Under the pieces are notes generated by a model. It saw only the letters and a program-made list of their open reading frames with translations, was not told the origin of the DNA and searched no databases. Both the position numbers and the translations under genes were made by a program. 41,182 nucleotides of DNA, taken from the NCBI GenBank assembly GCA_026692885.1, contig JAPLNJ010001214.1, forward strand, positions 1 through 41,182, given 5' to 3'. The stretch's first letter is position 1, and the number at the start of each line of letters is the position of its first letter. The DNA comes from Planctomycetota bacterium (GTDB taxonomy: Bacteria; Planctomycetota; Planctomycetia; Pirellulales; Pirellulaceae). Shown here piece by piece: positions 10,904 through 35,746 of this stretch.

Positions 10904-10935
10904 CGCGGCGATGCGTCCCAGGAGTTGCACCGGAA

Positions 10936-13900
10936 ATGCAGTTTCATGAAGCCGCGTTGCACGGCGCCTGGTTCAGCGATCCGCGCAGCTATGATTACCT
11001 GGTATTCGGCGATGCGAGCCTGTTGCTGCAAGCCATCCGCGAGGCCGCGCAGCGAGCCGATTTCCGACCGGTGATTCGCGGCATGGACCAGTTGCTGCAG
11101 GAACCGGCTCGATTCGGCGCCTTTCTGGCCGAAGACGCGGAGTACCCCAGCGAGTCGGGCTTGGCGGTGTTGGCAGGGTTGCGTGGCGCGGTCGAAGCGG
11201 CTCAGGTTTGGATCGAACATCACGACGACATTCAGTCGCCGGCCTCAACCCGTGCCAGACTGCGATTGCAGGACCAGCTGCGGGCGGCCGTCGCTGGCTT
11301 CGGACGGGCATGGGGCGACAGCGTACGTTCTGCCTTCGATCGGGACGGGCCGTGGAACCCGGTGCTGGACGCGAACCCCGTTTGGCAGCTGCTGACACAA
11401 TTGAGCCGCGATAACGACCGGGCCGGAATCTGGATTACGTGGGACGTCCTGCAGCGTCTGGTGCCGGTCAGCACTGGCCAAGCGGCTGGGGCCGGGTCGG
11501 TGCGATCCGCCACCACACCCGTGCTCGTCGCGCCGCCTTGGTCGCGACGTGGCTTCGTCATGTGGTTGACCGTGGAGTTGTTGCCCGATTGTCGCGGAGG
11601 GTTCGATCCGGACCCGCTGTCGCTGGGGCTGACGGCGGTTCAGGACGAGCCGACGGCAGGTGCGTTCAATCCTCCGGCGGATCAGGAGCGTGTTTCGGGA
11701 AACCAAGATCGCTGCGATTTACTCCACATCATGCGCCGCGTCTGGGCCGTTTCGGCGGTGGGGGATCGCTTTCGTGGTCGCTGGGGAATTACCTGCCAGT
11801 GTCCCGTCGCCGACAGTCCGTTCTCGCATCTCCCGCCCGTGTTTGTGCGCCGACTCGAGGGGCGGTCGGTGGAGGCGGCGGCCCTGGCGGCCATCTGGGC
11901 GGCCAGCGGCACAGTGCCGTACGACACTCCGTTCGCCGCGGGCCGACCGCTGCCCTTGATGCTGGACGTGGCGGTCACGGCCTGTCTTGATCACTCGGCG
12001 GCGGAGCGGCCTTCCGACATGGCACTCCGCCCCGTTAAATCGATCGGTCCCAAGCTTGTCGGCGCCAGGGAAGCTGGCCTGGATACGGTGCTGCTGGCCG
12101 AGGACGAAGAGCCGTCGGCAGCAGAGGACCAGCCACGGGCGGCGGACCGACCAACCGCCGCTGGGCATCAGCCGTCAGCCAGTGTCCATGTCGTGCGGAT
12201 CAAGACCATCCGTGAGGCATTGGATCGCATGCTGGTCACCAACCGCTTCCTGAACAAGTGGCAGGAGCAGCAGCAGCGAATCTGGCGGGACCAGTGGGAA
12301 TCGGGCACAGCCGAGTTGGAGCCGACGGCGGTGCAAGAACGCATGCCAAGGCACCTCGACAAACCTCCCTACATCGGGGACCAAGGTTGGCGATTGCTGA
12401 CGGACTTCCAGCATCCCGAGGATTATCTGCACGCGGCTTACTTTCGTCATCGACGGGAGGCTTCGGTCGAGGACGACGAATCACCGGACGATCGATGGTC
12501 AGACATTGACTGCCGAGACGATGTCGTGTTCAACCGCTTGCGACTTCCGCCGGTCGGCGCTGTGGACCTCCAGTTGCTGTGCGTGACCAGCGATGCAGGC
12601 GTCGGCAAGTCAGCGACCGTGGATTGGTTGCTCGCCCGCTTCAATCGTCCCGATACCGGCCTGATCGCCTTTAAGTTTCAGATCGGGGCCCTGCCGGTCG
12701 GCGGCGACGCGACCGGCGACGGCCTGCGGGACCAGATGGCTGCGCAGTTGCGAGATGAGAACGAGGGTCAGCTCAGCGCGGATTTGGCGACGGAGATTAT
12801 CGATTTCTATCGCCGGAGCGGGCGGCTGGTTCTGTTGTTCGACGGATTGGACCAAATTGGCGATCGAGCTCAGCTCGACGCGATTCAATCGCTGTTGGTC
12901 TCCCCGCTATGGGAGGCTTGTCGCAAGGTGGTCGCAGGGCGACCGCATGCGGTGCAGCGGGAGTGGCAGCGGCTGTTTGCGGGCCGCCCGTGGCGGTTCC
13001 TGCAAGCGGAGGAACTGACACCGGCGCAGCAGCGACGCTACCTGGGAAACGCGCCGAACGGCAGATCCCGCTACGATCGGCTGCCGGAAGAAGCACGCGG
13101 AATTCTCTCTGTGCCGCGCGTGCTGTATTACCTCTGGCAGATGTCGGAAGATCGCTTTGCCCGGGTGGAAACGGCCAGCGATGTCTACTACTTGGCGATT
13201 GAGGAGATGATTCTACGGGGGATGCAGGGCTCACCGCAGGCCCGCCTGATCGGCTGGCAGCGGCCCGATCCGCCTGACAAGCCGCAGGCCCTCTCGCTAC
13301 GCACCACGTTGGAACTGCTCGGGATCATCGCCTTCGAGATGACGTCGCAGACCCTGTTGCGCCCGCCAGCGGTCGTCGGCGACGAAGTCGCCACCGTTCC
13401 CAACTTCGACCGGATTGGCCGAGCTCAGTTCTCCAAGTTCGAAAAACAGTTGTACCAGCGGTGCCTGCAACTGCGTACGCTGGGTGATTTCGGCCACAAC
13501 CTACGCGGCCTGGGTGCCTTGAACACGCTCCTCGATCGCGGCCTGTTCGACGTAGATGTGGACGGCTTGGATCAGATTCAGTTCCGCAATCGCAGCTTGC
13601 AGGAGTTTCTGTGCGCGTACTACCTGGCGCAACACGCCCTGCCCGACGACGTAGCACGCTTGTGGAATTGGGTCTACCTGCCGGATCAGCCGGCGACCGA
13701 GGAATACTACTTCGTGTGGCAGTACCTCTGCGAAATGCATCCCGGCGCGCGCGATCCGGACTGCTGGTGTCGTGCGATCGAACCGCTGTATCGCCCGGCT
13801 TTTCAGTCTGCCCAGGGAACGTGGGAGGCTAAACGTTCCAATGAAATGATCTTTCGCTCCTGGAGCCGCCTGCAGGAATACTGCGCCGCCGGCCACGCGT

Positions 13901-14916
13901 TGGCGCTGCAGTTGCGCGAGCGGTGGTGGAATGAGTTCGAGAACCTCCCCGCACGCCGTCCGGAGGCACGTGGATTCTGCCAGCAGATCCAAGACAGCTT
14001 GATCACGCTGCCGGTGGGTGACTACGAGATGGGTTCGCCGCCTGACAAGCCCGGCATGGCTCGGGAGCAGGACACCTTCTGGCGGGACTGGATTGCCGGC
14101 GCCCAGGCCGCCCCCGAAGCCGAAATCGAGAAGTTCCTGGAATCGCACGATTGGGGCGTTGGCCGAAAGGCCCGGGCGCGGCGGGAGGAATGGCGTGCCT
14201 TTCTACTTCGCGTCGTGCAGGGCGGGGGCCTGGAACTGGTCAGGCAATGGGTGGCCTCAGCGCACGTTCCCCAGCAGCGTCAGCACACCGTGCAGGCCTT
14301 CCAACTTAGCCGCTGCCCGACGCTCAACGTCTGGTATCGGTTGTACGATCCAGGCCACGGCTTGCGACTGTCGCCCTTCCGGAAGCTCTACCAACAGTTC
14401 AGCCCTGACGCACAGTTTCCGGCGATCCACGTCAGTTGGTTTGATGCGTGGGCGTTTTGCCTCTGGCTCCGCTGGGGCGGGGGCAGCTGCCGCTTGCCGT
14501 GGGAGGACGAGTGGGAATATGCGGCCAAGTTCGGCACGCCCTGGGACCAGAAGTACTGGTGGGGAGACGAATTCGATGCAGCCCGCTGCAACGCGCGGGA
14601 GTCGTCGGTCGGCAGGACGGAACCGCCCTCGGAGACCCACGCCAATCCCGCCACCCAGACGCTCGATCCCGCCGAGATCGGCTTGCAAGACCTGTTGGGC
14701 AACGTCTGGGAATGGTGCCAGGATCAATATCGTGAGCATTACGAGCGGACCGATTCAGACGCCCCGGGCGATACCATTTCGTCGCGTGTCTTACGCGGCG
14801 GCTCCTTCAGCGACTACGCTTGGCACACGTGTTCTGCGACTCGAGACGAGGACCATCCGTCGATCGCGGACCGCGTCAACGGCATGCGAATCGCCCGAGA
14901 TTCGGACCGGCCGTAG
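10936..14916 (+). CDS. STAND NTPase: N-terminal region, probable Lon-like protease domain, NACHT, FGE-sulfatase domain
   Basis: 1326 residues from ATG 10936 (AGGAG 11 nt upstream); GTG at 10900, overlapping the previous stop, would add 12 residues. Residues 1 to about 270 are unrecognised. Residues about 300-395 match the proteolytic domain of Lon: Ser311 in EGRSVEAAAL (Lon GPSAG), DVAVT, then Lys373 in a segment aligning without gaps with E. coli Lon around Lys722, followed by AGLDTVLLAEDEE. About 12 extra residues separate the two catalytic positions compared with Lon. The NACHT/STAND core has Walker A SDAGVGKS (552-559) and Walker B LLFDGLDQI (Asp636), then a long helical region. Residues about 1025-1326 form a formylglycine-generating-enzyme-like fold (EMGSP, WEDEWEYAAKFG, LLGNVWEWC, RVLRGGSFSDYAW, GMRIARD). 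Probably a cytoplasmic sensor/effector with an FGE-fold recognition domain; true FGE activity unlikely. Confidence 0.9.
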   Translation: MQFHEAALHGAWFSDPRSYDYLVFGDASLLLQAIREAAQRADFRPVIRGMDQLLQEPARFGAFLAEDAEYPSESGLAVLAGLRGAVEAAQVWIEHHDDIQSPASTRARLRLQDQLRAAVAGFGRAWGDSVRSAFDRDGPWNPVLDANPVWQLLTQLSRDNDRAGIWITWDVLQRLVPVSTGQAAGAGSVRSATTPVLVAPPWSRRGFVMWLTVELLPDCRGGFDPDPLSLGLTAVQDEPTAGAFNPPADQERVSGNQDRCDLLHIMRRVWAVSAVGDRFRGRWGITCQCPVADSPFSHLPPVFVRRLEGRSVEAAALAAIWAASGTVPYDTPFAAGRPLPLMLDVAVTACLDHSAAERPSDMALRPVKSIGPKLVGAREAGLDTVLLAEDEEPSAAEDQPRAADRPTAAGHQPSASVHVVRIKTIREALDRMLVTNRFLNKWQEQQQRIWRDQWESGTAELEPTAVQERMPRHLDKPPYIGDQGWRLLTDFQHPEDYLHAAYFRHRREASVEDDESPDDRWSDIDCRDDVVFNRLRLPPVGAVDLQLLCVTSDAGVGKSATVDWLLARFNRPDTGLIAFKFQIGALPVGGDATGDGLRDQMAAQLRDENEGQLSADLATEIIDFYRRSGRLVLLFDGLDQIGDRAQLDAIQSLLVSPLWEACRKVVAGRPHAVQREWQRLFAGRPWRFLQAEELTPAQQRRYLGNAPNGRSRYDRLPEEARGILSVPRVLYYLWQMSEDRFARVETASDVYYLAIEEMILRGMQGSPQARLIGWQRPDPPDKPQALSLRTTLELLGIIAFEMTSQTLLRPPAVVGDEVATVPNFDRIGRAQFSKFEKQLYQRCLQLRTLGDFGHNLRGLGALNTLLDRGLFDVDVDGLDQIQFRNRSLQEFLCAYYLAQHALPDDVARLWNWVYLPDQPATEEYYFVWQYLCEMHPGARDPDCWCRAIEPLYRPAFQSAQGTWEAKRSNEMIFRSWSRLQEYCAAGHALALQLRERWWNEFENLPARRPEARGFCQQIQDSLITLPVGDYEMGSPPDKPGMAREQDTFWRDWIAGAQAAPEAEIEKFLESHDWGVGRKARARREEWRAFLLRVVQGGGLELVRQWVASAHVPQQRQHTVQAFQLSRCPTLNVWYRLYDPGHGLRLSPFRKLYQQFSPDAQFPAIHVSWFDAWAFCLWLRWGGGSCRLPWEDEWEYAAKFGTPWDQKYWWGDEFDAARCNARESSVGRTEPPSETHANPATQTLDPAEIGLQDLLGNVWEWCQDQYREHYERTDSDAPGDTISSRVLRGGSFSDYAWHTCSATRDEDHPSIADRVNGMRIARDSDRP

Positions 14917-15221: not shown

Positions 15222-15647
15222 ATGGCAAACGAGCCCCGATCCGACCTCCAACTTACCCCGCATCAGTTGCGACTGTTGAAGACGGTGTGGGGGGGGAAAC
15301 GCACCGCTGGTGAAATCCGGGCCGCGATCCAGGACTCAGCTGGGCCGCCTCCCGACTTGGCGATGGTTTCGGCCGGGTTGCAGCAACTGGCGCAAGAGGG
15401 ATACCTACAGCGAGAATTGCACCCCCATGCTGACGACACGTATACGGCGTTAGTCACCGCTGCCGAGGTCCGCGAGTGGCTTTTGTCTCGGTCCAACGAC
15501 CTGCTCAATGAGCCAGCGGGTCTCATGGAACGGTTTGCGGGCCGGAATGATTTGAGCCGAGAGCGAATACGGCTCCGGCGGATTCTGGATAGCCTGGAGA
15601 AACCCGACCAGCCGCCTCTACAGGGCGTTAAGAAGGGTGGGAAGTGA
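15222..15647 (+). CDS. BlaI/MecI/CopY-family winged-helix repressor
   Basis: 141 residues from ATG 15222, with AGGTGG a few nt upstream. The layout is that of BlaI-type repressors: LTPHQLRLLKTVWGG (helix 1), TAGEIRAAI, the recognition-helix region DLAMVSAGLQQLAQEGYLQR, and a wing (HPHADDTYTALVTAAEV) leading to a C-terminal dimerisation segment with SRERIRLRRILDSLE. Length fits the family (about 120-140). In characterised systems this repressor is cleaved when the paired BlaR1/MecR1 membrane peptidase is triggered. The next gene is such a peptidase, starting 19 nt after this stop, so the pair probably forms a signal-responsive switch. What it controls is not shown; the neighbouring cluster is the obvious candidate. 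Confidence 0.85.
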   Translation: MANEPRSDLQLTPHQLRLLKTVWGGKRTAGEIRAAIQDSAGPPPDLAMVSAGLQQLAQEGYLQRELHPHADDTYTALVTAAEVREWLLSRSNDLLNEPAGLMERFAGRNDLSRERIRLRRILDSLEKPDQPPLQGVKKGGK

Positions 15648-15666
15648 ACTTCCGGGAGATGATGTC

Positions 15667-17814
15667 ATGCCGGGCAAGACGACGATCGCGGACTTCCTGA
15701 AGTTGCGGCCACGGCTCCCGCGCCAATTCCTGATGCGGCTGCGCAGCCGAGACGGCTGGGGACGTAGTCTCCGCTCCCTGTCGTCGGTGGCATCGAGCCG
15801 TCACTTGCGGTGGGCGGTCCGGTGTTTGATTCTGGCAGGCGTCGCCTTGCTGACCATGGCCTGCTACGGCGTAGACCCGAGATTCGCGGCCGAGTTAGCC
15901 CTGGTCCCAATTCAAGTCAACTTCTATGCCGTCCTGGTGACCGCCGTCTGCTTCATCCTTGCGCGCGGGGGCGTCGAATTCATCCACTGGAGGCGTTGGC
16001 ATCGGCGACACATGCGACTGGTTTGGCTGGGCGCGGCCGCCGTGCCACTGGTGACGTTCGTGGTCTGCTCCTTGCTTAGCATCGCGCGGTGGCTCCTGAC
16101 GCAAGCCCCGTCCGCCGTCGCTTCATTCCTGCCAGACGCCCCCGCCGTCGCCGAACCCCTGGAGCCGATCAGTTCCGCCGTGTTCGTGACCCTGGGCTTT
16201 CTTTGGGGCGTGTGGGGACTCTGGGGTCTGTCGGAGTTGGGCGGCGAGTTGTCCTGGCTGGCGCGGCATGTGGCCACCCTGCTCGAAGACCCGCGGAGCA
16301 GTGTGGTCAGTCAGCAGGGCGGAGAACTCCAGGCAGACCAGGCACCCAAGCTGTTGAGCTTCCATGTCCGGTCGTCCGCTCGCAAGAAACGGGTGGCCTA
16401 CACCCTCACCTTTGCGGCCCTGCACCGCCTCTATGTCCAGTCCGCCGAACGCCTTGGCATCAGGCCCGACCGCCTACCCCGGCTCGTGGTTACAGACAGC
16501 GAATCCGTCGGCAGGATTGGGCCCCACTATGTGGTGACCTGGAAAGCGGGTGCGGTCATCGTCCTCCCCAGCGACCTGTCGGCGTATGTCCAGCGCACGA
16601 CGGATCGCGGCGCGGACCGGAAGGGGGGCGAGTGGAACGTCGGGCTGGAGAGCCGCTACGTGCGCGATTGCCTCCGGGTGATCCTGCTTCACGAACTATC
16701 GCACCACCGAGCCATCGATCACGTGATGCAGTTTTGGGTTGTCCGTATGAGCCGCATTCTCTGCTGGCCAGCCTGGTTCTTGATGGAGAGTTGGGGCGGC
16801 TATCAGGCGCTCGATCTGGCCGTCGAGGCGTCCTGCGACTGCGATGCGTTCGCCGCGATGACGACATCCCGTGCCGCGGACGATGGTCAACATGTCGTGG
16901 AAGATGTGGTGAGCGGCGTGCTGGCTGACGAAGGCCATCCCGCGCCGGACGCCCGGCAAAAAGAAATCGAGCAGCTGGAACAACTGGCGGCCATCCTGAA
17001 CTCGTTCCAGGGTGCCGGTGGCGAACACGCGGCGCGCGTAAACCTCATCCGGCGGGAAACCACGGGAGCCGGATCGCGTTGGTTCTCGATGCTGCCCTTG
17101 GCGATCGCCGCCCTGCTCGTGTCGTTTCTCACCCTGAGTGACGCTGCGCCCCAGCCTTCATCACCGCTTCGGTGGGAGCGTCCCAGCCGCGACTTGCTGC
17201 TGGGCAACATCAGCAGGGTCATGGACGGATTGGGGGAGCTCGCCAACCGGCCCTTGGTGTTGCCGGCGCGATTTCCACACATCTTGCCCACTCCAACGCC
17301 GTCGCCGGAACTGTTGCCGCCCTCCCACGCCGCGGACATCCGGCATCAGCGGCTGGCCTCGACCGTAGACGCCGGGACGAGGCTGGCGCCTCCGCCAGCG
17401 ATCTCAATTACGCCGTCGCTGGCGAATTGGCGGCCGGAGTCTACTCGGGCCAGTTTCTCTCGCAGCGAACGATTGCCGGGCAACATCGCGTCCATGGCAT
17501 CCGGCGAAAAAAAGTTGACCGACTTCGTCACCCGGCTGAATGATACAAAACTGCAGATGCGGCGCAATGCCCAGGACTGGAATGACCGGTTGGCGGCGTG
17601 GCAAGCGAGAGTACAGGAGATGCGATACGCGCAGGAGGAGCAGCGACGAGAGTCCATGTACCGGCAGATGCAACAGCAACAAATCCAGCAAGAGGCCCAG
17701 CGAGCACAACAGCAGACACAGCTATTGCAAAATGTGCAGCAGATGCAACAGCAGCAACAGTCACTCATTCAAAGCCAGCAGCGGGATCAAATGCAACGGA
17801 TTAACAGGCCATGA
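15667..17814 (+). CDS. BlaR1/MecR1-like M56 membrane metallopeptidase with Gln-rich tail
   Basis: 715 residues from ATG 15667 (GGGAG 9 nt upstream); a GTG 10 codons earlier overlaps the repressor gene. Four hydrophobic segments come first (around LILAGVALLTMACYG, FYAVLVTAVCFILARG, LVWLGAAAVPLVTFVVC, VFVTLGFLWGVWGLWG). The peptidase domain has HELSH at residues 342-346 and the downstream acidic motif with Glu387 in EASCDCDAF, as in M56 peptidases. Another TM (MLPLAIAALLVSFLTL) separates it from a long exported tail that ends in a Gln-rich coiled coil (residues about 645-715). No penicillin-binding sensor domain is visible, unlike BlaR1, so the signal is unknown. Paired with the upstream repressor, whose cleavage it probably controls. 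Confidence 0.85.
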   Translation: MPGKTTIADFLKLRPRLPRQFLMRLRSRDGWGRSLRSLSSVASSRHLRWAVRCLILAGVALLTMACYGVDPRFAAELALVPIQVNFYAVLVTAVCFILARGGVEFIHWRRWHRRHMRLVWLGAAAVPLVTFVVCSLLSIARWLLTQAPSAVASFLPDAPAVAEPLEPISSAVFVTLGFLWGVWGLWGLSELGGELSWLARHVATLLEDPRSSVVSQQGGELQADQAPKLLSFHVRSSARKKRVAYTLTFAALHRLYVQSAERLGIRPDRLPRLVVTDSESVGRIGPHYVVTWKAGAVIVLPSDLSAYVQRTTDRGADRKGGEWNVGLESRYVRDCLRVILLHELSHHRAIDHVMQFWVVRMSRILCWPAWFLMESWGGYQALDLAVEASCDCDAFAAMTTSRAADDGQHVVEDVVSGVLADEGHPAPDARQKEIEQLEQLAAILNSFQGAGGEHAARVNLIRRETTGAGSRWFSMLPLAIAALLVSFLTLSDAAPQPSSPLRWERPSRDLLLGNISRVMDGLGELANRPLVLPARFPHILPTPTPSPELLPPSHAADIRHQRLASTVDAGTRLAPPPAISITPSLANWRPESTRASFSRSERLPGNIASMASGEKKLTDFVTRLNDTKLQMRRNAQDWNDRLAAWQARVQEMRYAQEEQRRESMYRQMQQQQIQQEAQRAQQQTQLLQNVQQMQQQQQSLIQSQQRDQMQRINRP

Positions 17815-17955
17815 CCTCCGCCACCAACAATCTTCCGGCCTCCCGGACGGTAGACGCCGCAGCCAGTGCGGTGGCTCAATTTTCGCCGGGAGGGGAAAGC
17901 GACCGTCGTGCCTGCCTTGATCGATTGCTCAGGTTCTTCCGCACAAAGGAGGAGT

Positions 17956-20900
17956 ATGGTCTGGCAACGCATCTGGCAGCGGACGCGCGGCGTCGGCGTC
18001 ACGGTCTGCACCTTCCTGTCGGACCTGCTCCAGGTGGCGTGGCTCCTGGTGCGAGCCATGTGGGCTCGGCGCAAAGCCATCGGCGCGGTTGTCTTGGTGG
18101 TCGGCTGTGCCACTTTGGCAGTCTATCGCCCGAATCACAGTTCCGCACCTAGCGCGTCGGTAGCCCCTCTCCAACACGCCCCCACGGCCGCGGAGGAGTT
18201 CACCCTCGGCAAAGCGAGTCTGGATGAGGGGCACCGGGAGGAGGCTCTGGACCATTTTACCAGGGCCATCGCCCAGGGCACCGCCGCCCCCCCGGATTCC
18301 CTCCCGCCTGAAATGTCACGCTTGCTCGTGATTGTGCGTTCCCTCCGGGGTGAGGTATCGAGCGCGCAAGACAGGCCGGACGAGGCGATCCAGGATTTCC
18401 GAGCGGTGATCACAGCGGCGGCTTCCGTCTCGCCGCCGCCCGCCGACGCCGAATTGGCGGCTGCGATCGCGGCGGCACGGCTCGGTTGGGGGCAGATTTT
18501 GCTTGACGTCGGCCAAGCGGCGGAAGCCCTGCCGCACCTCGATGAGGCGATCCAGGCGTACCGCGGGCTCGCTCGTACGGCGGGACAGAACACTTGGGCC
18601 AGCCGTTTGACCGCGAGCCTTTTCAATCGAGGAAGATCGTGCTGGGATCTGGGGCGAATCACCGCGGCTTTGGAGGATTTCACCACGACGATCGTGACCC
18701 TGGAGGAAGTGGATCTGGAGTCCGGTGCCGATTGCCAGAACTCGCTGGCGACACTCGCCATGGCACATCAAGCTCGAGGACGTATCCAGCGGGACCAGGG
18801 CCACGCCGAAGCGGCCCTGAACGATTTGGACCAGGCTGTCCACGGCTTCCGGCAGTTGGTGCAGGCTGGGGAATTGTCCAGTCTGCGCAGTTCGCTGGCG
18901 ACCAGCCTCTACCTCCGCGCGAGCCTCTACCTGGACCAGGATCGCACCGCCGATGCGTGGCAGGATTTGGGGGCCGCCTTGGACGCCCTGTCCGGCGTCG
19001 AGACTACGTCGAAAGCCGCACCACGGACCGCCCTTGAGGCGATGGTCCGACAGACGCGCGCCCGCATCTGCCTCACTCGCGGTGACGCGGAGCTGGCCCT
19101 GCAGGACCTGGAGTTCGCACAGCATGCGTATCGCCGCCTGATCCAGGACGAGAAGCAGGAGGCTTGGCGTGGTTCGCTGGCCGCCTGTCTCTGCACGCGT
19201 GCGGGCGCCCTGTTGCAGCGGAAACGTACCGCGGAGGCCTTAGCCGACTTTACGGCCGCGATCGACAGCCTGCAGGGCGGGAAGGCGGTGACCGATGATC
19301 TGCGGCTGCACGCCATGCTTGCGACGGCGTTGGACGCACGGGCCCGCATCCAGCTTGGCCAGGGTGAGGCCGAGGCGGCCCGACGGGACCTCGACGGGGC
19401 CATTGTGGGTTTCGAGCAACTGGTTCAACAGGAAGGGTCACGATCCCAGCGCGAGTCGTTGGCGGCCACCCTCTGCACCCGCGCCAACCTGGCCCTGGAG
19501 CAGAACGACCACAACGCTGCGCAGCAGGACTACGATCGGGCCATCGACGCTCTGGGGGAGACCGATGTCGCGAAGGACGACGCCGCGCGGGTGACCCTTC
19601 TGGCGGTGGCGCGACAGGCCCGTGCCGCCGTCCACTTGGGACGGAACAACGCGGCAGCGGCTCGTCCGGATCTCGACCTCGCCATCGCAGCCTACCGTCG
19701 GCTTGTGTATCAGGAAGGGCAGGAACTCGATCGCTGTTCCCTGGCAGCCAGTTTGTGCAGCCGTGCCAACGGCTTTCTGGAACAAGCCAACCCCGTTGAC
19801 GCGTTCCAGGATTTCGAGGCGGCGATCAAGGCGCTGGGGAGCCTCGGCGTGGAGTCGGACGATGTGCAGGGGCTGGGCCTGTTGGCGCTGGCTCGGCTTG
19901 GCAAAGGCCAGATCCTGCTTGGCCAAGGCAAGGCCGGCGAGGCCAGCACCGAGCTGGATACCGCAGTGAGTGTGTACTCGCTGCTGACTAACGAAAGGCA
20001 GCTGACGGTCGCCCGCGGGTCCTGGGCGCTCAGTTTGTGCGAGCGAGGGTCGGTCAGGCTGGAGCAAGGTCTCGTAGCGCAAGCCATCGATGATTTCTCC
20101 GCCGCCGTCAAGGCGATCGCGGAGACGAGAGCCGACCCCAGCCCGCCATCGGCTCCGATTCTGGCCACCGCTCGTTTTCGACTCGGCACCGCGCTGCGGA
20201 TGGAGGGTAAACTGTCACTGGCCATGGACGAGTTCAGCCGCGCGATCGAGATCTGGTCTGCGCGCGACGACGCCAGCGCCTTTGCCAACTCGATCGCCAC
20301 GGCACACTATTCCCGCTCGCTCGCCCGATCTCAGTCAGGACAAATCGAGGAAGCAATCCATGATCTCGAAGAGGTGATCGCGATCTTGGAACGGGTGGCA
20401 GAACCGCCAGGATCAGAACGTGTCATACCGCAGTTGGCCGCCGCACTCAATGACCTCGCTTGGCTGCGTGCCGTTGCTCCAGAGGCGGACTTGCGTGACG
20501 GAGCGGAGGCCGTCGACTTGGCCACGCGAGCCTTGGATTTGGCTGGCCGACAAGATCCCTTGTTCCTGGCCACGATCGCCGCAGCGCTGGCAGAAGCCGG
20601 TGATTTCGAAGAAGCCGTCAAGATCCAAGAGCAGACGCTCGGGTGCTGTCCAGAGGCGGAGAAGCAAGGTTACGGAATCCTGCTCGAAATGTACAAGGCC
20701 AAGCAGGCCTACCATCTGATCCAGGTCGCCGTGAGGAAGTGGCTGACCGCCTCTGGAGACTACTGGGGCGATGCGGAATTGGCTGACCTGGATAAGGGCA
20801 AGGTGTCGCTGCGCCGGCTCAACGGTGACGTGGCCACGCTACCGGTGGAAGAGATCAGTATCCAGGATCGGGAATACTTGGCGTCGCTGATCGAGCGTGG

Positions 20901-21288
20901 GCAGCGCAACTTCTTGGAGAAATTCAACCGAGCGTCTGGAGAAATGGCCCGCGACGACAAGAGTCCTGGGGCGCCCATCATTTATCTCAAACTGGCCGGC
21001 AGCGAGGTAACGGGAGATACGCTCGAACAGCTTGATGGTCTGGCGTTCCTGCGTCGGCTGGTGCTGCAGAAGGCCGCGATCTCCAACGCGGACCTGGTTC
21101 ATCTGGGACGTTTGCCGCGACTCAAGACGCTCGAAATCGCGGCCGTGGCCATCGATAACGGTGCGTTGGAACATCTGGTGGCCCTGGCCAGCCTAAAGAG
21201 CGTTTCGTTTCGTCAAACCGGAATTACCGTCGATGACGTCAAGCTATTCCGCCAGTTCTGTCCCGAAGTCAAAGTGACTTTACGATAG
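17956..21288 (+). CDS. Membrane-anchored TPR protein with C-terminal leucine-rich repeats
   Basis: 1110 residues from ATG 17956, chosen for the strong AAGGAGGAG directly upstream; an in-frame GTG at 17866 is possible. N-terminal hydrophobic segments (about 15-35, and AIGAVVLVVGCATLAVY) suggest an inner-membrane anchor with the rest outside the cytoplasm. The body is alpha-solenoid TPR: motifs such as LGKASLDEGHREEALDHFTR followed by repeats of the form SLAxSLCxRA...AxxDFxxAIxxL. From residue about 1009 it turns into leucine-rich repeats (LDGLAFLRRLVLQKAAIS, LGRLPRLKTLEIAAVAI, LVALASLKSVSFRQTGIT). TPR plus LRR indicates a protein-binding scaffold or sensor; partner unknown. It follows the M56 gene by 141 bp and may be co-regulated. 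Confidence 0.85.
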   Translation: MVWQRIWQRTRGVGVTVCTFLSDLLQVAWLLVRAMWARRKAIGAVVLVVGCATLAVYRPNHSSAPSASVAPLQHAPTAAEEFTLGKASLDEGHREEALDHFTRAIAQGTAAPPDSLPPEMSRLLVIVRSLRGEVSSAQDRPDEAIQDFRAVITAAASVSPPPADAELAAAIAAARLGWGQILLDVGQAAEALPHLDEAIQAYRGLARTAGQNTWASRLTASLFNRGRSCWDLGRITAALEDFTTTIVTLEEVDLESGADCQNSLATLAMAHQARGRIQRDQGHAEAALNDLDQAVHGFRQLVQAGELSSLRSSLATSLYLRASLYLDQDRTADAWQDLGAALDALSGVETTSKAAPRTALEAMVRQTRARICLTRGDAELALQDLEFAQHAYRRLIQDEKQEAWRGSLAACLCTRAGALLQRKRTAEALADFTAAIDSLQGGKAVTDDLRLHAMLATALDARARIQLGQGEAEAARRDLDGAIVGFEQLVQQEGSRSQRESLAATLCTRANLALEQNDHNAAQQDYDRAIDALGETDVAKDDAARVTLLAVARQARAAVHLGRNNAAAARPDLDLAIAAYRRLVYQEGQELDRCSLAASLCSRANGFLEQANPVDAFQDFEAAIKALGSLGVESDDVQGLGLLALARLGKGQILLGQGKAGEASTELDTAVSVYSLLTNERQLTVARGSWALSLCERGSVRLEQGLVAQAIDDFSAAVKAIAETRADPSPPSAPILATARFRLGTALRMEGKLSLAMDEFSRAIEIWSARDDASAFANSIATAHYSRSLARSQSGQIEEAIHDLEEVIAILERVAEPPGSERVIPQLAAALNDLAWLRAVAPEADLRDGAEAVDLATRALDLAGRQDPLFLATIAAALAEAGDFEEAVKIQEQTLGCCPEAEKQGYGILLEMYKAKQAYHLIQVAVRKWLTASGDYWGDAELADLDKGKVSLRRLNGDVATLPVEEISIQDREYLASLIERGQRNFLEKFNRASGEMARDDKSPGAPIIYLKLAGSEVTGDTLEQLDGLAFLRRLVLQKAAISNADLVHLGRLPRLKTLEIAAVAIDNGALEHLVALASLKSVSFRQTGITVDDVKLFRQFCPEVKVTLR
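18604..20300 (+). repeat. TPR super-repeat, about 94 residues (282 bp), six copies
   Basis: The anchor segments SRLTASLFNRG, SSLATSLYLRA, GSLAACLCTRA, ESLAATLCTRA, CSLAASLCSRA and GSWALSLCERG start near 18601, 18889, 19174, 19453, 19735 and 20020. The spacing is 279-288 bp, so each unit is about 94 residues and holds a pair of TPR hairpins. The regularity indicates growth by tandem duplication. Confidence 0.7.
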
Positions 21289-22293: not shown

Positions 22294-24162
22294 ATGCCGA
22301 TCGCCTATCCTCCCTCGGCGGCTACACGAGGAAAACCCCGAATAGGTTGCCAGCTCACTCGCCAGGATGACAGGGCCCAACGGCCCTCCCCTCATCGCCT
22401 CGGCTGCCTGGTGCGCATCGGCATCGCGGGGATGCTGATGCTTTGTGCCGGGCCAGCCCTGATGGCCGGCGAGAAGACCGCCGCGAAGGCGATGGCGCCG
22501 GAACGCTCGGCCTTCCCGTTGACCGGGACGCGGGTCCACGTGCAGCTGTCCTCCGGAAAAGTCCTCAAAGACGTGGCTGTGATTGGCCGTCGTCTCGGCC
22601 AACGGCCGGAGACCGTTGCCGCCGTGACCGTCGCGAATCCGGAGGATGGCCAACCGCTGTTGTTGAACGCCCGCGATGTCCAGCAGTTGAAGGCCGTCGA
22701 TGGTTCCTGCCATCTCGTTCTGGACGGCGCCGCAGCCGTTCTAGTGCCGCGTGACACGCTGCGTCCATCCCCCGCCCAGGACGCAGTTCCTCCGGCGACA
22801 AGCCCTGCCTCCAACCGACCGCTCCCGGCCGCAGAAACCACGGCCCAAGATGCGGAAGCTCAGCGTCAGCGCGAGTATGAAGAAACTGGGGTCTGGCGAT
22901 GGCTGCCGCTCACGCCGGAGCAGCAGATGCGGGCGCTGGCGGAACAAAAGAAGTACCTGCAACAGGTCGGGGAGGAGTTCAAACCGACGAAAATGCATTT
23001 GTTCGAACAGCAGCGGTTTCTCTTCTACACCGATATGTCCGGCAAGTGGGTGCTGGCTCACGCGCGCTACTTGGACAATATGTACAAGACGCTTTGCGGT
23101 GTGTTCGGGATCGATCCCCGCTCCAACATCTGGTACGGCAAGGCCCTGGTGATCGCGTTCGAGCAGAAGCCGTCGTATGTCCGTTTCGAACAGAAGTACT
23201 TCCCTCAATCCACGATGGCGGAGAAGACCGTGGGGCTGGCCCATCAAGATCCCGATGGCCAAGTGGTCATCTCCTGCTGGCTGGGCAACAATGCTGCCGA
23301 TTTCGCGAATACACTGGTCCACGAGACGGTGCACGGATTTTTGCACCGCTACAAGTCGCGACAAAACGTGCCGAATTGGGTTAACGAAGGGGCGGCGGAA
23401 TGGATTGCGATTCACGTCACTGGGGGGAGCGGGTTTGCCAAACGCCGGCAACAAGCGGCCGTTTCTGCCCTAGCCGCTGAATCGTGGGAAGTCAAAGGGC
23501 GATTCTTTTCGGCCGCGAATATCAAGGGCGAGGAATACGGATTGGCCTTCAGTCTCACAGATTTCCTCTTGCGGACGGACAAGGCGAAGTACAAGCGACT
23601 TATGGATGGCATCAAGACCGGAGATCACTGGGAAGAATGTCTCCGGGCCGCATACGGATGGTCGGTGGACGATCTCGTCCGCCGTTACGCCGGCGATCCT
23701 GGTTTACTGCCCGACCTCGGCGTCTCAGCGGACGGGATCGCCCAACTGCACGTCGAGGCTGATTGGCGCGAGGCGGGGCAGAAACCTGTCTGGATCATAT
23801 ATGACCACGAGCACGACAGCCCTCTGAAGGACTTGCTTTGCCAAGAGGCAAGACGCGTCGATTCGCCGTTTCGTGTCATCGACTCCTCGGTGGTCTCGAC
23901 CGACCCGGCAGTGGGAGAAGATCCCGTGCGTGAGCTCATCCGGAAGGCCGAACAAGTTGCCGTTCTGTGCGGCGAGCACACGGAAAAGTCTCGCCAGGTC
24001 ACGACGGAACTAACGATTGCGCAAGAGGAGAACAAGCCTTACTTTCTCTTGGCACACGAGACGGTCAAGTCCTGTCGAAGACCGGCCAGCGCCAAGGAGG
24101 ACGACAAGCTGTATGGTTGGACCTGGCTGAACGTCAAGAATCTCGTGTCCGGTGCCCGATAG
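22294..24162 (+). CDS. Exported HExxH peptidase (DUF1570-like) fused to a C-terminal TIR-like (MTH538/DUF1863, ThsB-like) domain
   Basis: 622 residues from ATG 22294 (AGGAG 7 nt upstream). A signal peptide or signal anchor lies at about 35-57 (LVRIGIAGMLMLCAGPALMA). Residues about 70-150 may bind as an SHD1-like beta domain. The middle is a gluzincin-type metallopeptidase: His343-Glu-Thr-Val-His347 and the third-ligand motif WVNEGAAEW with Glu365, as in DUF1570 proteins. Residues about 496-622 (VWIIYDHEHDS, QEARRVDSPFRVIDSS, CGEHTEKSRQVTTELTIA, QEENKPYFLLA, KLYGWTWLNVKNLVSGAR) closely follow the pattern of TIR-like MTH538 domains, including the terminal WTWxNxKxLxxGAR. TIR-like ThsB proteins make NAD-derived signals in Thoeris; whether this one is catalytic is unknown. 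A TIR-like domain behind an export signal is unusual. Confidence 0.88.
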   Translation: MPIAYPPSAATRGKPRIGCQLTRQDDRAQRPSPHRLGCLVRIGIAGMLMLCAGPALMAGEKTAAKAMAPERSAFPLTGTRVHVQLSSGKVLKDVAVIGRRLGQRPETVAAVTVANPEDGQPLLLNARDVQQLKAVDGSCHLVLDGAAAVLVPRDTLRPSPAQDAVPPATSPASNRPLPAAETTAQDAEAQRQREYEETGVWRWLPLTPEQQMRALAEQKKYLQQVGEEFKPTKMHLFEQQRFLFYTDMSGKWVLAHARYLDNMYKTLCGVFGIDPRSNIWYGKALVIAFEQKPSYVRFEQKYFPQSTMAEKTVGLAHQDPDGQVVISCWLGNNAADFANTLVHETVHGFLHRYKSRQNVPNWVNEGAAEWIAIHVTGGSGFAKRRQQAAVSALAAESWEVKGRFFSAANIKGEEYGLAFSLTDFLLRTDKAKYKRLMDGIKTGDHWEECLRAAYGWSVDDLVRRYAGDPGLLPDLGVSADGIAQLHVEADWREAGQKPVWIIYDHEHDSPLKDLLCQEARRVDSPFRVIDSSVVSTDPAVGEDPVRELIRKAEQVAVLCGEHTEKSRQVTTELTIAQEENKPYFLLAHETVKSCRRPASAKEDDKLYGWTWLNVKNLVSGAR

Positions 24163-25264: not shown

Positions 25265-26248
25265 ATGGCCACTGCTAACATCCCAGATTTGACCCCCTTG
25301 AACTCCGAAGAGCACTGGCCGCAACATAAGCTGGACCTGAGCTACTTCACCGCGGCCGACCGCTGTCCACTGATGGTCCGGCGGCGCGCACGCGGAGCGT
25401 TCGAGTTGTTTCTGTATCTGGCATATCGGTTCATTCATGGTGGTGGCGAACCCGTCGTGGCCGAACACGAGGAGTTGTGCGCTGCCTGCGGGGTGGTCCC
25501 CGACAGTCTCCATTCGTCGTCGGAGATCTCCCGTCTGTTGCGCTCGTTGCGAGAGACCTACCAGGTGATCGATTACCGGCCCGTTCAACGCCGTCAGCCG
25601 AGAATCCGCTTGGCAGCTGCCAAGCCGGGAGCGGATATTTTGAATCCGCACCATTACATCTACTTCAACGAGGGTTGGAGCGGGACGCGTCGAGCGATCT
25701 TCGATGTCTTGGGAAACCGCGCCTTCTGCGCCGAGTACATGTACTTGGTTGGCAAGTACGAGTCGGCTTTGGCTCAGGTGAAACACGGCAGGTCGTATTG
25801 GTTTTTTCCGCTGGAGAGCATTTCTGCGGTGTACCACATTTCGACCCGTTTTTCGGGTGCTGGCTTACGGGGCTTGGTGAGGCTGGGAGTGATGCAGGTT
25901 GTGCCCGGTCAGTTTAGCATCACGGCGCCCGGAGACCAATTCGGAAAAGCCAATCGCTACTACTTTCAGGGCTTGGGAGAGGTGACTGACAGGAAACGGC
26001 GGATCGAGGAGGTACAGGACGAGCACCCTCGTCAGTTCGCGACGGCCGACGAATTGTCGCGAAAGCTAATCAACGGTGCCACAACGAAGAACGTGGCTGG
26101 ATTGTGTGAACTTATGGTCATGTATGGTGAGGAGCCAGTTCGCGCGGCCGTGAAGCATGTGGCAAACCTGTCACCTCGGAGCCTGAAACGCCGGTTGGCC
26201 TACGTCAAGTCGATGTTGGCACGTTCGCAGGCGACTGAGCCCGGATAG
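25265..26248 (+). CDS. Unrecognised protein of the recombinase module, possible winged-helix type
   Basis: 327 residues from ATG 25265 with only a weak GAGAAAG upstream. Not recognised. It is mixed alpha/beta with a helix-rich N-terminus (ARGAFELFLYLAYRFIHGGG), SSEISRLLRSLRETYQVIDY that resembles a winged-helix segment, a central aromatic stretch (NPHHYIYFNEGWSGTRRAI, SYWFFPLESISAVYHIS), and a C-terminal helical part rich in Arg and Lys (LSPRSLKRRLAYVKSML). The general look is of a DNA-binding or replication/regulatory protein of a mobile element, which is inference. It is followed by a terminator-like hairpin, and the next two genes lead to a serine recombinase. Confidence 0.72.
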   Translation: MATANIPDLTPLNSEEHWPQHKLDLSYFTAADRCPLMVRRRARGAFELFLYLAYRFIHGGGEPVVAEHEELCAACGVVPDSLHSSSEISRLLRSLRETYQVIDYRPVQRRQPRIRLAAAKPGADILNPHHYIYFNEGWSGTRRAIFDVLGNRAFCAEYMYLVGKYESALAQVKHGRSYWFFPLESISAVYHISTRFSGAGLRGLVRLGVMQVVPGQFSITAPGDQFGKANRYYFQGLGEVTDRKRRIEEVQDEHPRQFATADELSRKLINGATTKNVAGLCELMVMYGEEPVRAAVKHVANLSPRSLKRRLAYVKSMLARSQATEPG

Positions 26249-26474: not shown

Positions 26475-26972
26475 ATGGTTACTTTGACGACGAGCGACGG
26501 ATCGTTCTGCCTTCCAGACGAGATGGTTCGCGCGATTATCCGCAATTCCGAGTTTCAGGCGGATCTGGCGGCAGCTGTCATCGACGCGATGGGCATCTTC
26601 AAGACCAAACCGATCCGACTTCCCGCTGGTTTCCTGCTCGAATTCGCGGCTGTCGTGCAGTTGGGGTTTTGGGAGCGGCAGGGAGTTCGGCAGCGTCTAA
26701 ACGCTGACCTGCTGACATACAGCGATGCCGCGAAGAGCCTAGCTGCGCGGGCGGCGAAAGGCCCCGCGGAGTTTGCAGACCTGGAGGCCACGCCGATCTC
26801 CCACCTCGTGACGCGAGCCTTCATCGAGAACTTTGCCTGGGAAGGGCCGGACCATCTCGGAGCCGACGTCATCATCGGCCAGGTTGACGAGGAGCAGTTC
26901 GCTGATGTGCTGGCGGAGTTCGTCTGGCAGCACCGGCGCGAATTGTCCACAATGCTCAACGTGCAAGAATAG
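26475..26972 (+). CDS. Unrecognised small protein upstream of the serine recombinase
   Basis: 165 residues from ATG 26475; the AAGG before it is too close to be a good ribosome-binding site, so a later start (for example ATG 26523) cannot be excluded. Family not recognised. It is largely helical and acidic (LPAGFLLEFAAVVQLGFWE, AKSLAARAAKGPAEFADL, FADVLAEFVWQHRRELSTML). No export signal. Its stop is 19 nt before the recombinase ATG, so the two are probably co-transcribed and the product could be a recombination directionality or accessory factor. That role is inferred from position only. Confidence 0.65.
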   Translation: MVTLTTSDGSFCLPDEMVRAIIRNSEFQADLAAAVIDAMGIFKTKPIRLPAGFLLEFAAVVQLGFWERQGVRQRLNADLLTYSDAAKSLAARAAKGPAEFADLEATPISHLVTRAFIENFAWEGPDHLGADVIIGQVDEEQFADVLAEFVWQHRRELSTMLNVQE

Positions 26973-26991
26973 ACTTCGAAGAGAGAAAAAT

Positions 26992-29015
<2,024 letters not shown>

Positions 29016-32337: not shown

Positions 32338-32377
32338 CTTGCCTTGACGAAGGACGACTTGCCTTGACGAAGGACGA
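32338..32377. repeat. Perfect 20-bp tandem duplication in the PSD1 leader
   Basis: CTTGCCTTGACGAAGGACGA occurs at 32338-32357 and directly again at 32358-32377. The unit contains the AAGGA ribosome-binding site, so two such sites precede the ATG at 32382. Confidence 0.85.
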
Positions 32378-32381
32378 CGCC

Positions 32382-35300
32382 ATGCAGCAGACCAAGTTAT
32401 CGTTTGGGATCACGCTGGGACTTCTCCTGGTCCTCGGCCGCTCGGCGGCGGCCGACGACTCGCTCGGCTACAACCGGCAGATCCGGCCGATTCTGGCGGA
32501 GCATTGCTTCGCTTGCCACGGTCCGGACAGTGCCTCGCGCAAGGCAGATCTGCGACTGGACCGCCGCGAGGCAGCGCTCAAAGCCCAGGCGTTCGCGCCC
32601 GGCAAGCCAGAGGATAGCGAGGCGATCCGCCGGATCGTCGCGGCTGATCCCGAGGAAGTGATGCCGCCGCCCTCGACACATAAGAAGCTGACCGAACTGC
32701 AGAAGACGCTGCTCAAGCAGTGGGTTGTCGCCGGCGCCGAGTACCAGCCGCACTGGTCGTTAATCACGCCGCAGCGGCCGCCGCTGCCGACGGTGAAGGA
32801 ACCGGCTTGGTGCCGCAACCCGATCGACAACTTCATTTTGGCCAGGCTGGATGAAGACGGGTTGCGCCCTGCAGGCGAGGCCGACCGGCGGACGCTGGCC
32901 CGACGCGTCTACCTGGACCTGCTCGGTCTGCCCCCGCCGCCGGCTGAAGTAGAGACCTTCGTCGCCGATTCGGCGCCGGACGCCTATGAGAAGTTCGTCG
33001 ATCGTCTGCTGCTGTCGCCGCACTGGGGCGAGCACCGCGCCCGCTTCTGGCTGGACGCGGCCCGGTATGCCGACACGCATGGGCTGCACTTCGACAACTA
33101 CCGCGAGATTTGGGCGTATCGCGATTGGGTCATCGACGCCTTTAACCGCAATCTGCCGTTCGATCAATTCACCGTCGAGCAACTGGCAGGCGATCTGCTG
33201 CCCCAGCCGGCGCTGGAGCAGATCGTGGCCAGCGGCTTCCATCGCTGCCAGGTCACAACGAACGAAGGCGGCACGATCCCTGAAGAGAATTTGGTGATCT
33301 ATACGCGGGACCGGACGGAGACCACGGCGCGCGTGTGGCTGGGATTAACGGCCAACTGTGCGGTCTGCCACGACCATAAGTTCGACCCGATCAGCAGCCG
33401 CGAGTTCTATCAAATGTCGGCGTTCTTCAATAACACGACGCTGGGCGCTATGGATGGCAACATCCAGAACACGCCGCCGGTCCTGATGGTGCCGCCGTTG
33501 ACGAACCGCGCCCGGTGGGAGGCCCTGCCCAAAGAAGTGGTGGACGCCCGACAGAAAGTCGACTCGCGCCAACAGGCGGCGCGGGCCGAGTTCGATGCGT
33601 GGATGGCCAAGCCCATACCGGAGCCATTCGCCATGCCCGTGCCTGGCGACCAATTGCAGCTGCACGCAGCGTTGAGCGAAGGCGGCGGCAAATCGTTCCA
33701 GGTGGCATTGGATGGCAAGCCGCAGGAGATCGCACTCGCGGCCGAGCTGGCGTGGGAGGCCGGGTACGTGGCGGCCCAGGCCCTCCAGATTCCGATCCAA
33801 GCCCAACCGGCGCCGGAAATCGCGTCGGCCGGGGACTTCGAGAAAGATCAAGCCGTTTCGTACGGCGCGTGGATCAAGCTGGCCAAGGACCATCTGCTGG
33901 GCGCCATCGTCGCTCGCATGGATGACCAGCAGGCCTATCGCGGCTGGGACCTGTGGTTCGAGCAGGGTCGCGTCGGCACGCACCTCGTGGACCACTGGCC
34001 GGACGACGCCCTGAAGGTCGTCTCGAACAACCCGATCAAGTCGGGCGAGTGGGCACACGTCTTGGTGACCTACGACGGATCGGGCAGGGCAGGGGGGGTG
34101 AGAGTCTATGTCAACGGGCAGCCGCAGCCAACCAGCACCCAGGCGGATACTCTGAAAGGCACGATTCGCACGACGGTCCCCTTGACCATCGGTCAGCGAC
34201 ATACATCCCAGCGTCTGGAGGGCGCGGCGATTCAAAACTTGCGGATCTACGGGCGGGTGCTGACGGCCGAGGAAGTTCAGCAATTGGTCCGCGGCACGCG
34301 GGCGGGGTGGCTGGCGGCCAAACCAGCGGCCCAACGGACCGAGGCCGAGAAGAACGAACTGTTTCCCATCTGGCTGGCGACGACAGACAAGGGATCTCAG
34401 CAGCTGACCGCTCGACTGGCCGCCTTGGAGAAAGAGCAGGCCGACATCAAGGCCCGCAGCACCGCAGCTTTCGTGACCCAGGAACGCAACTCGCCCGCCC
34501 AAGCCTATGTCTTGCACCGGGGCGAGTACGACAAGCGGCGGGATCAGGTCGCCCCGGACACGTTCAGTTGCCTGCCCGCATTCCCGGCCGACTTGCCGAA
34601 GAACCGGCTCGGATTCGCCAAGTGGCTGCTGCGACCCGAACATCCCTTAACCGCGCGGGTCACAGTGAATCGATTCTGGCAGGAGGTGTTCGGGGCGGGG
34701 ATCGTGCGGACCACGCACGATTTCGGAGTGAGTGGCGAACTGCCGAGCCATCCGGAGTTACTGGACTGGCTGGCGGTGGAGTTTCGCGAGTCCGGTTGGG
34801 ACGTGAAGCACCTGTTCCGGCTGCTAGTCACCTCGGCCGCCTATCGCCAGTCGGCCGTCACGACACCGGAGAAGCTGGAGCGGGACCCATCGAATCGCGG
34901 GCTCTCCCGTGGTCCGCGGTTCCGCCTGGATGCAGAGATGATCCGCGACTACGCCTTGGCAGCCAGCGGCTTGTGGGTGCCGAAGATTGGTGGGCCGAGC
35001 GTGAAACCGTATCAGCCGGTTGGTGTCTGGGAGGCGGTAGCGATGAACGTCAGCAACACGAGCGCATATCGCCAGGACAGCGGCGAGGCCCTCTACCGCC
35101 GCAGCGTGTACACGTTCTGGAAACGTTCGGCCCCGCCCGCGTCGATGGACATCTTCAACGCGCCGTCCCGCGAGACGTGTAACGTGCGGCGGGAGCGAAC
35201 GAACACGCCCTTGCAGGCTCTGGTGACGCTGAACGACCCGCAGTTCGTCGAGGCGGGCCGGCACTTGGCTGAGCGAACGCTGAAGGAGGGTGGCGCGACG

Positions 35301-35531
35301 CTGGACGGTCGCCTGGACTTTATGGCCAAGCATCTGCTGGCCCGGCCGTTGCGGCCGGAAGAGAGCCAGACGGTGCAGGCGTCGCTGCAGGGGTTGCTCG
35401 AATATTATGGAGCCCATGCCGATGAGGCGAAGCAGTTGTTGACGGTCGGCGATGTTGACGGTCGGCGAATCGAAAGTGGATCCGGCCCTGGAGCCGCCGC
35501 TGTTGGCCGGCTGGACCATGCTGGCCAATGA
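32382..35531 (+). CDS. PSCyt1/DUF1549/DUF1553 (PSD1) cytochrome-like protein with frameshifted C-terminus
   Basis: 1049 residues from ATG 32382 (AAGGA 7 nt upstream). A signal peptide opens the protein (FGITLGLLLVLGRSAAA). PSCyt1 has a heme-type Cys42-FA-Cys45-His46 motif in HCFACHGPD, DUF1549 follows with a second CxxCH (Cys326, NCAVCHDH), then a LamG-like beta-sandwich (SYGAWIKLAKDHLLG ... AHVLVTYDGSG), and DUF1553 at the end (NRLGFAKWLLRPEHPLTARV, NRFWQEVFGAGIVRT, NTPLQALVTLNDPQF). The protein is probably periplasmic and heme-binding; the family is common in planctomycetes and its role is unproven. A 16-bp tandem duplication at 35437-35468 shifts the frame, so the last residues (from DVDGRRIES) replace the usual LDPAL...AWTM...LNLDEVL end, which is still readable in the next frame to 35565. 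Confidence 0.9.
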   Translation: MQQTKLSFGITLGLLLVLGRSAAADDSLGYNRQIRPILAEHCFACHGPDSASRKADLRLDRREAALKAQAFAPGKPEDSEAIRRIVAADPEEVMPPPSTHKKLTELQKTLLKQWVVAGAEYQPHWSLITPQRPPLPTVKEPAWCRNPIDNFILARLDEDGLRPAGEADRRTLARRVYLDLLGLPPPPAEVETFVADSAPDAYEKFVDRLLLSPHWGEHRARFWLDAARYADTHGLHFDNYREIWAYRDWVIDAFNRNLPFDQFTVEQLAGDLLPQPALEQIVASGFHRCQVTTNEGGTIPEENLVIYTRDRTETTARVWLGLTANCAVCHDHKFDPISSREFYQMSAFFNNTTLGAMDGNIQNTPPVLMVPPLTNRARWEALPKEVVDARQKVDSRQQAARAEFDAWMAKPIPEPFAMPVPGDQLQLHAALSEGGGKSFQVALDGKPQEIALAAELAWEAGYVAAQALQIPIQAQPAPEIASAGDFEKDQAVSYGAWIKLAKDHLLGAIVARMDDQQAYRGWDLWFEQGRVGTHLVDHWPDDALKVVSNNPIKSGEWAHVLVTYDGSGRAGGVRVYVNGQPQPTSTQADTLKGTIRTTVPLTIGQRHTSQRLEGAAIQNLRIYGRVLTAEEVQQLVRGTRAGWLAAKPAAQRTEAEKNELFPIWLATTDKGSQQLTARLAALEKEQADIKARSTAAFVTQERNSPAQAYVLHRGEYDKRRDQVAPDTFSCLPAFPADLPKNRLGFAKWLLRPEHPLTARVTVNRFWQEVFGAGIVRTTHDFGVSGELPSHPELLDWLAVEFRESGWDVKHLFRLLVTSAAYRQSAVTTPEKLERDPSNRGLSRGPRFRLDAEMIRDYALAASGLWVPKIGGPSVKPYQPVGVWEAVAMNVSNTSAYRQDSGEALYRRSVYTFWKRSAPPASMDIFNAPSRETCNVRRERTNTPLQALVTLNDPQFVEAGRHLAERTLKEGGATLDGRLDFMAKHLLARPLRPEESQTVQASLQGLLEYYGAHADEAKQLLTVGDVDGRRIESGSGPGAAAVGRLDHAGQ
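35437..35468. repeat. Perfect 16-bp tandem duplication causing a frameshift
   Basis: TGTTGACGGTCGGCGA occurs at 35437-35452 and again at 35453-35468. Removing one copy restores LTVGESKVDPALEPPLLAGW and the expected C-terminal end of the protein with a stop at 35563-35565. The length 16 is not a multiple of 3. Confidence 0.9.
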
Positions 35532-35617
35532 GTTGCTGAATCTGGACGAGGTGTTGAACAAGTGAGGCGAGTGGTGGGCGTAAGGACCGCGAAAATAACT
35601 GTCGGGTTTTCAATGTG

Positions 35618-35726
35618 GTCATCACGCTCCGCGTGATGACATGTCGTCACGGCGGAGCGTGACGACTACGATGCTGGCTGGGTGGGCTGTGCCCACCAGT
35701 TGATTTTCTGCGGTGGGCACAGCCCA
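35618..35726. repeat. Cluster of three perfect hairpins
   Basis: GTCATCACGC-TCC-GCGTGATGAC at 35618-35640; GTCGTCACG-GCGGAG-CGTGACGAC at 35643-35666; and a 15-bp pair TGGGCTGTGCCCACC with its complement at 35683-35726 (14-nt loop). They fill the gap between the PSD1 and DUF1501 genes and look like REP-type elements. Confidence 0.85.
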
Positions 35727-35746
35727 CTCTACACGATGAGGCGCGT

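Follow-up and report, generated by a model that had tools for sequence, protein, structure and literature searches.

The gene at positions 22294–24162 (forward strand) of a 41,182-nucleotide stretch of planctomycete DNA (contig JAPLNJ010001214.1 of assembly GCA_026692885.1; the whole stretch is called the window here) encodes a predicted exported zinc peptidase of the gluzincin type fused to a C-terminal TIR-like domain. The open reading frame (ORF) runs for 622 amino acids with no internal stop and holds, from N- to C-terminus, a putative export signal, a small beta domain, the peptidase with its HETVH...NEG core and the TIR-like domain. A second, metagenomic protein of 599 amino acids (P0002), encoded on another contig of 34.6 kb and 40% identical to the protein of the window (P0001), has the same order of parts and the same linker. 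The uninterrupted ORF, an above-cut-off match to PF08937 and the existence of P0002 confirm the fusion of a predicted exported HExxH peptidase with a TIR-like domain that a preliminary description of the window had reported. The fusion is a real single-polypeptide architecture of a planctomycete type, and it is rare. Its features are the following.

22294–24162, forward strand: whole gene, predicted exported gluzincin peptidase–TIR-like fusion of 622 amino acids, with matching architecture in P0002
22282–22286, forward strand: AGGAG, ribosome-binding-site-like, 7 nt before the ATG as read from the sequence
22294–22464, forward strand: predicted export signal, with a positive N-region (residues 1–41) and a hydrophobic core (42–57), from hydropathy and charge
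22528–22752, forward strand: small all-beta N-terminal domain, residues ~79–153, in the structure model (predicted local distance difference test, pLDDT, mostly >90)
22960–23724, forward strand: peptidase domain, residues 223–477, M9-collagenase-like gluzincin fold
23320–23334, forward strand: HETVH, residues 343–347, putative zinc-binding and catalytic motif; H343, E344 and H347 invariant in 7/7 aligned proteins
23383–23391, forward strand: NEG, residues 364–366, with the likely third zinc ligand E365; invariant in the same 7/7 proteins
23725–23781, forward strand: linker QLH...DWREAG..PV, common to P0002 in the alignment
23782–24159, forward strand: TIR-like domain, PF08937, residues 497–622, from Pfam, homologue search, fold matches and tree
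23791–23799, forward strand: strand-1 positions W500 and I502, which are F in 56/57 and S in 52/57 stand-alone TIRs (register of F6 and S8 in ThsB)
23971–23982, forward strand: GEHT, residues 560–563, from the alignment of TIRs
24007–24009, forward strand: E572, aligned with the catalytic E85 of Bacillus cereus ThsB and kept in 57/57 stand-alone TIRs

The similar GC content at third codon positions in the peptidase part (0.72) and the TIR part (0.71), together with the loss of the codon pattern past the stop, indicates a single coding frame. When about 5.8 billion proteins were searched and the 7997 with the most words in common were scored, six relatives emerged besides the query; five of them end after the peptidase and only P0002, which repeats the architecture, carries a TIR. 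A scan of genome contigs gave 113 stretches encoding a relative, of which 80 loci were kept, all with titles that we take to be planctomycete except for L033 and L048 ('bacterium'). These proteins (P0003–P0007 and the scanned loci) share the peptidase domain with the fusion and mostly also an N-terminal hydrophobic stretch, but unlike it none of 97 homologue ORFs, taken from the 80-locus scan and the loci of later scans after leaving out 12 loci with minus-strand matches, extends more than 23 residues past the end of the family. In 392 planctomycete genomes, with at most three candidates scored per genome so that a miss is possible, 123 matched a two-row profile of the fusion, and among the matches listed each covered the peptidase or the TIR, never both. 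No further fusion was seen in the first genome-contig scan or in viral contigs. With the TIR region of the fusion as protein query, the fusion itself was the sole match among 1227 candidates; this search is not a sensitive one, because P0002 was missed as well. No exported TIR–peptidase fusion is described in the titles and abstract openings of the literature listed.

The gluzincin core named in the preliminary description was borne out by the invariance of H343, E344, H347 and E365 in all seven aligned proteins, E365 being presumably the third zinc ligand by analogy with other gluzincins. The intact HExxH and NEG motifs suggest an active zinc enzyme. Pfam matches over this region (Peptidase_MA_2, BSP, DUF1570 and M9) all fell below their cut-offs, with 13.6 bits against a cut-off of 26 for Peptidase_M9, and neither the fusion nor the peptidase alignment had a relative in the PDB at the sequence level at E 1. 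The predicted fold resembles the peptidase domains of M9 collagenases (7wss, 4ar1 and others). The fusion differs from these in its low identity (11–15%) and sub-threshold profile score, and the resemblance does not imply a role in collagen breakdown.

For the C-terminal domain, the match to PF08937 (ThsB_TIR) covers residues 503–586 with 22.4 bits against a gathering cut-off of 21.2 (E 1.7e-4). Though this score is barely over the cut-off, the TIR identity is far beyond chance, because the TIR part alone (window 23770–24159) found 61 short stand-alone proteins at E 1e-30 to 1e-13. They are 42–49% identical to the fused TIR and 99–171 amino acids long, mostly 127–130, in a search that takes only proteins of similar length and in which several matches come from short contigs. 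The structure model of the domain has a predicted flavodoxin-like TIR fold and matches solved TIRs, including B. cereus ThsB (6lhy) and a B. cereus TIR protein (8fz9); it also resembles the nucleotide N-hydrolase DNPH1. The fused TIR is set apart from these ThsB/PF08937 proteins by its C-terminal place behind an export signal and by having W where ThsB has F6 and I where ThsB has S8. The CGEHT (559–563) and WTWLNVKNL (609–617) patterns are present, as had been proposed. Of the suggested likeness to MTH538 and ThsB, the ThsB half was upheld by Pfam and fold match, while MTH538 was absent from the best 50 rows of three structure comparisons in which ThsB structures appear, which does not exclude kinship. 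No PADLOC model matched the fusion protein at E 0.01.

What is new about this domain is the company kept by its kin: it is close to the 61 stand-alone TIRs, whose relatives adjoin a caspase gene in 10 of the 14 loci opened (ten plasmid and four planctomycete). On plasmids (10 of the 52 records matching the query P0012) the caspase gene lies directly downstream in seven, H1, H2, H3, H4, H7, H13 and H19, that of H2 having been spotted on inspection of the translated sequence where no gene is listed; none adjoins the TIR in H6, H14 and H18. In the planctomycetes (the best four of eight TIR-part matches listed) a Peptidase_C14 gene adjoins the TIR gene in L142, L143 and L145, not in L144. A caspase neighbour was found at six of the seven loci closest to the fusion (H1–H4, H6, L142 and L143) versus four of the seven more distant ones. 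In an 80-row tree, built from 130 columns only and with both fused TIRs on long branches, the TIRs of P0001 and P0002 pair (Shimodaira–Hasegawa-like approximate likelihood ratio test, SH-aLRT, 87) and join P0008 and P0023 (96), within a larger group that holds the seven closest rows. By its sequence, then, the fused TIR is kin to a group often encoded beside caspases, as in type IV Thoeris, these pairs being defined by adjacency and not by strict type IV membership.

Stand-alone TIR genes of ~130 amino acids adjoining a caspase gene were noted in the planctomycete loci L142, L143 and L145 and in the plasmid loci L212–L214, L216, L217, L219 and L221. Five of these seven plasmid loci are on plasmids typed as conjugative or mobilizable, and some of the TIR–caspase loci have a second TIR gene nearby. 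In another planctomycete locus (L167, G069:C204), pentapeptide-like N-terminal repeats precede a C-terminal TIR in tandem copies, as recognised by eye, and the same combination occurs in L175, L176, L178, L179, L181, L189, L191, L194 and L195.

Bacterial TIR domains have been studied mainly as cytoplasmic enzymes acting on nicotinamide adenine dinucleotide (NAD). In the fusion, residues 1–41 contain eight R/K versus two D/E and are followed by a 16-residue hydrophobic core; the best N-terminal 13-mer reaches a Kyte–Doolittle value of 2.11, and past residue 90 the mean hydropathy of a 19-mer never exceeds 1.29. By the positive-inside rule, a positively charged N-region implies an N-in, C-out arrangement, so the C-terminal domains are predicted to lie outside. 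Counting as hydrophobic an N-terminus with a 13-mer of at least 1.8 within the first 130 residues, a measure of hydropathy and not a trained predictor, we found such a stretch in 87 of 95 peptidase homologues (two of the 97 failed an ORF filter; eight lacked it) and a further strongly hydrophobic segment in only one. We therefore favour placing both domains outside the cytoplasm, as judged from hydropathy and charge. As for other possibly exported planctomycete TIRs, four of 85 hand-picked PF08937 ORFs, which are not all of the matches, had a hydrophobic N-terminus. Of these L165 looks over-extended before an internal Met and L199 is multi-spanning, whereas the assessment of L167 and L196 covers their first 60 residues only. 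None of the 68 ORFs of at least 290 amino acids contained HExxH.

The state of the TIR active site is mixed. E85 is described as the catalytic residue of ThsB (PMC10022894), and F6 is named as part of its potential active site (PMC7272460); S8 probably contributes to the pocket. In the HMMER alignment to 6lhy, with E85 assigned via a numbering offset of 2, the Glu of the E572 column is kept in the stand-alone TIRs, in P0002 and in 21/21 other TIR ORFs compared. P0001 has lost the usual strand-1 residues and lacks the W that 57/57 stand-alone TIRs have at 541, and P0002 keeps F, S and W and has G in place of Asp at 530. Catalysis is thus possible and not assured, and the drift differs between the two copies. 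A non-catalytic recognition role, which the preliminary description had considered, is disfavoured by the retained Glu and favoured by the two changed strand-1 residues.

Our preferred reading, offered tentatively and at somewhat less than an even chance, is that of an exported zinc peptidase whose TIR acts in cis as a ligand-binding or assembly switch, not as a signal-making NADase. The N-terminal signal would export the protein, leaving peptidase and TIR outside the cytoplasm, free or membrane-tethered, with the peptidase working as a zinc gluzincin. The TIR would no longer send a diffusible signal to a partner; it may bind a ligand of the NAD or ADP-ribose type or pack with other TIR domains, and either event could switch or assemble the attached peptidase. 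Several points weigh against this. The predicted template modelling score (pTM) of the full-length model is 0.64, so that any contact between the domains is uncertain; both fusions have preserved E572 and GEHT, as retained catalysis would require; and P0002, in keeping F and S while losing a near-invariant Asp, appears to share no common pattern of pocket change with P0001. The N-terminal hydrophobic stretch of P0002 is weak (best 13-mer 1.78, just below the threshold), the caspase contexts come from relatives other than P0008 and P0023, which are nearest in the tree, and two fusion proteins are too few for selection tests. A more specific version, which we regard as improbable, would have the exported TIR read NAD or ADP-ribose compounds from lysed neighbours and gate the metallopeptidase, making an outward-facing counterpart of TIR–caspase immunity in which fusion takes the place of messenger and partner gene.

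The exported TIR could instead still be an enzyme that cleaves extracytoplasmic NAD or a related nucleotide, for instance from lysed neighbours, for scavenging or as a signal, the peptidase being an independent second activity. The persistence of the Glu and GEHT in both fusions, the presence of the Glu throughout the other TIRs compared and the resemblance to DNPH1 speak for this, but W500 and I502 stand where almost every relative has retained other residues, and extracytoplasmic NAD is, on general grounds, expected to be scarce; we put its chance at about one in four.

Less probable again is that the TIR became fused by chance, has no role and is decaying as a passenger that the peptidase tolerates. 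Such a view would suit the absence of comparable extensions in the 97 homologue ORFs and of matches to both parts among those listed from the 392 genomes, as well as the long branch of P0002 and the loss of near-invariant positions: of 71 columns at least 90% conserved among 57 stand-alone TIRs, P0001 keeps 47 (24 lost) and P0002 keeps 30 (41 lost). The eight TIRs encoded beside a caspase that were compared keep 31–61 of these columns. Against a passenger, the TIR has been kept in two proteins only ~40% identical, with the catalytic Glu and the linker conserved, and that of P0001 has not diverged beyond 42–49% identity to the stand-alone TIRs.

If the N-terminus were a retained anchor in the opposite orientation, or if the protein were not exported at all, peptidase and TIR would work in the cytoplasm as a one-protein defence resembling type IV Thoeris. 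The stand-alone TIR group does look cytoplasmic, because 0/57 have a hydrophobic N-terminus, and its relatives often adjoin caspase genes; the N-region of 41 residues is also long for a signal peptide and the stretch in P0002 is weak. The charge of the N-region, the hydrophobic N-termini of most peptidase homologues, including the clear one of P0004 (source name thioredoxin), which precedes an additional N-terminal region, and the lack of a recognised defence partner in the neighbourhood make this arrangement doubtful. Of the preliminary interpretation, the peptidase, the TIR-like domain and the export-type N-terminus (signal peptide or anchor) stand, and the option of a retained anchor that leaves the TIR in the cytoplasm is disfavoured. 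Two separate genes, a missed stop or a frameshift, the outcome that would have undone the earlier description, are ruled out by the recurrence of the peptidase–linker–TIR order in P0002 and by the continuous codon bias, and a chimeric assembly, for which no evidence emerged, has a vanishingly small chance since P0002 lies on another contig.

Production of N7-cADPR is a feature of type IV Thoeris. Such systems consist of a TIR protein and a caspase-like protease (Rousset et al. 2025, as cited in PMC12847820). The fusion resembles them in pairing a TIR, itself related to the caspase-neighbouring group, with a protease, and differs in being one polypeptide with a zinc metallopeptidase instead of a caspase, in its predicted export signal and in its surroundings, where a scan of 20 neighbouring ORFs matched no caspase family. 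Kaur et al. (2020, PMC7159879) describe the VMAP and iSTAND ternary conflict systems, with planctomycetes among their hosts, and their effectors include TIR and caspase-like domains and, in rare cases, metallopeptidases; the fusion contains both a TIR and a metallopeptidase, but both follow a predicted export signal, and the same 20 ORFs gave no match to a vWA or MoxR family. A TIR akin to caspase-associated ones that lies behind an export signal and is joined to a protease of another class would suggest that the partnership of TIR and protease is open to rewiring in cis and to a move out of the cytoplasm. By pairing an apparently exported zinc protease with an immune-type TIR, the fusion raises the question of the role of a TIR outside the cytoplasm, and as a small testable protein it would allow one to ask whether a TIR domain gates a protease directly.

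Upstream on the same strand lie genes for a NACHT–FGE-sulfatase protein (10900–14916), a weakly BlaR1-like protein (15637–17814) and a TPR–SHD1 protein (17866–21288); downstream, ~1.1 kb without a called gene is followed by 25265–26248 and a serine recombinase gene (26833–28959). A tblastn comparison of nine window neighbours with 141 loci, not all of them peptidase loci and some with short flanks, found the C-terminal part of the NACHT/FGE protein in two and that of the TPR protein in one, and as no neighbour proved to be conserved next to the peptidase in these loci, the surroundings offer no firm hint of function. The possibility that the fusion sits in a Thoeris operon was considered and rejected: there was no PADLOC Thoeris match in nine window proteins (fusion included) and no caspase in the 20 ORFs.

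Some neighbours are of interest in their own right. The NACHT protein (1338 amino acids, forward strand, NACHT at 560–715, C-terminal FGE-sulfatase) is reminiscent of conflict systems of multicellular bacteria; the two ORFs preceding it (8583–9893 and 9941–10903) had no Pfam match at E 0.001. The BlaR1-like protein (forward strand) rests on an NCBIfam match at E 0.0033, far below the cut-off, and with the small ORF upstream of it (15222–15647), which has no family match, possibly forms a protease-type regulator pair. The serine recombinase (PF07508, forward strand), preceded by small ORFs, may belong to a mobile element that inserted shortly after the end of the fusion gene. Further along, 32364–37231 (forward strand) encodes a protein with PSCyt1, PSCyt2, PSD1 and Laminin_G_3 domains, followed by a DUF1501 protein; a PSCyt1/PSCyt2/PSD1 protein and a DUF1501 protein form a typical planctomycete gene pair.
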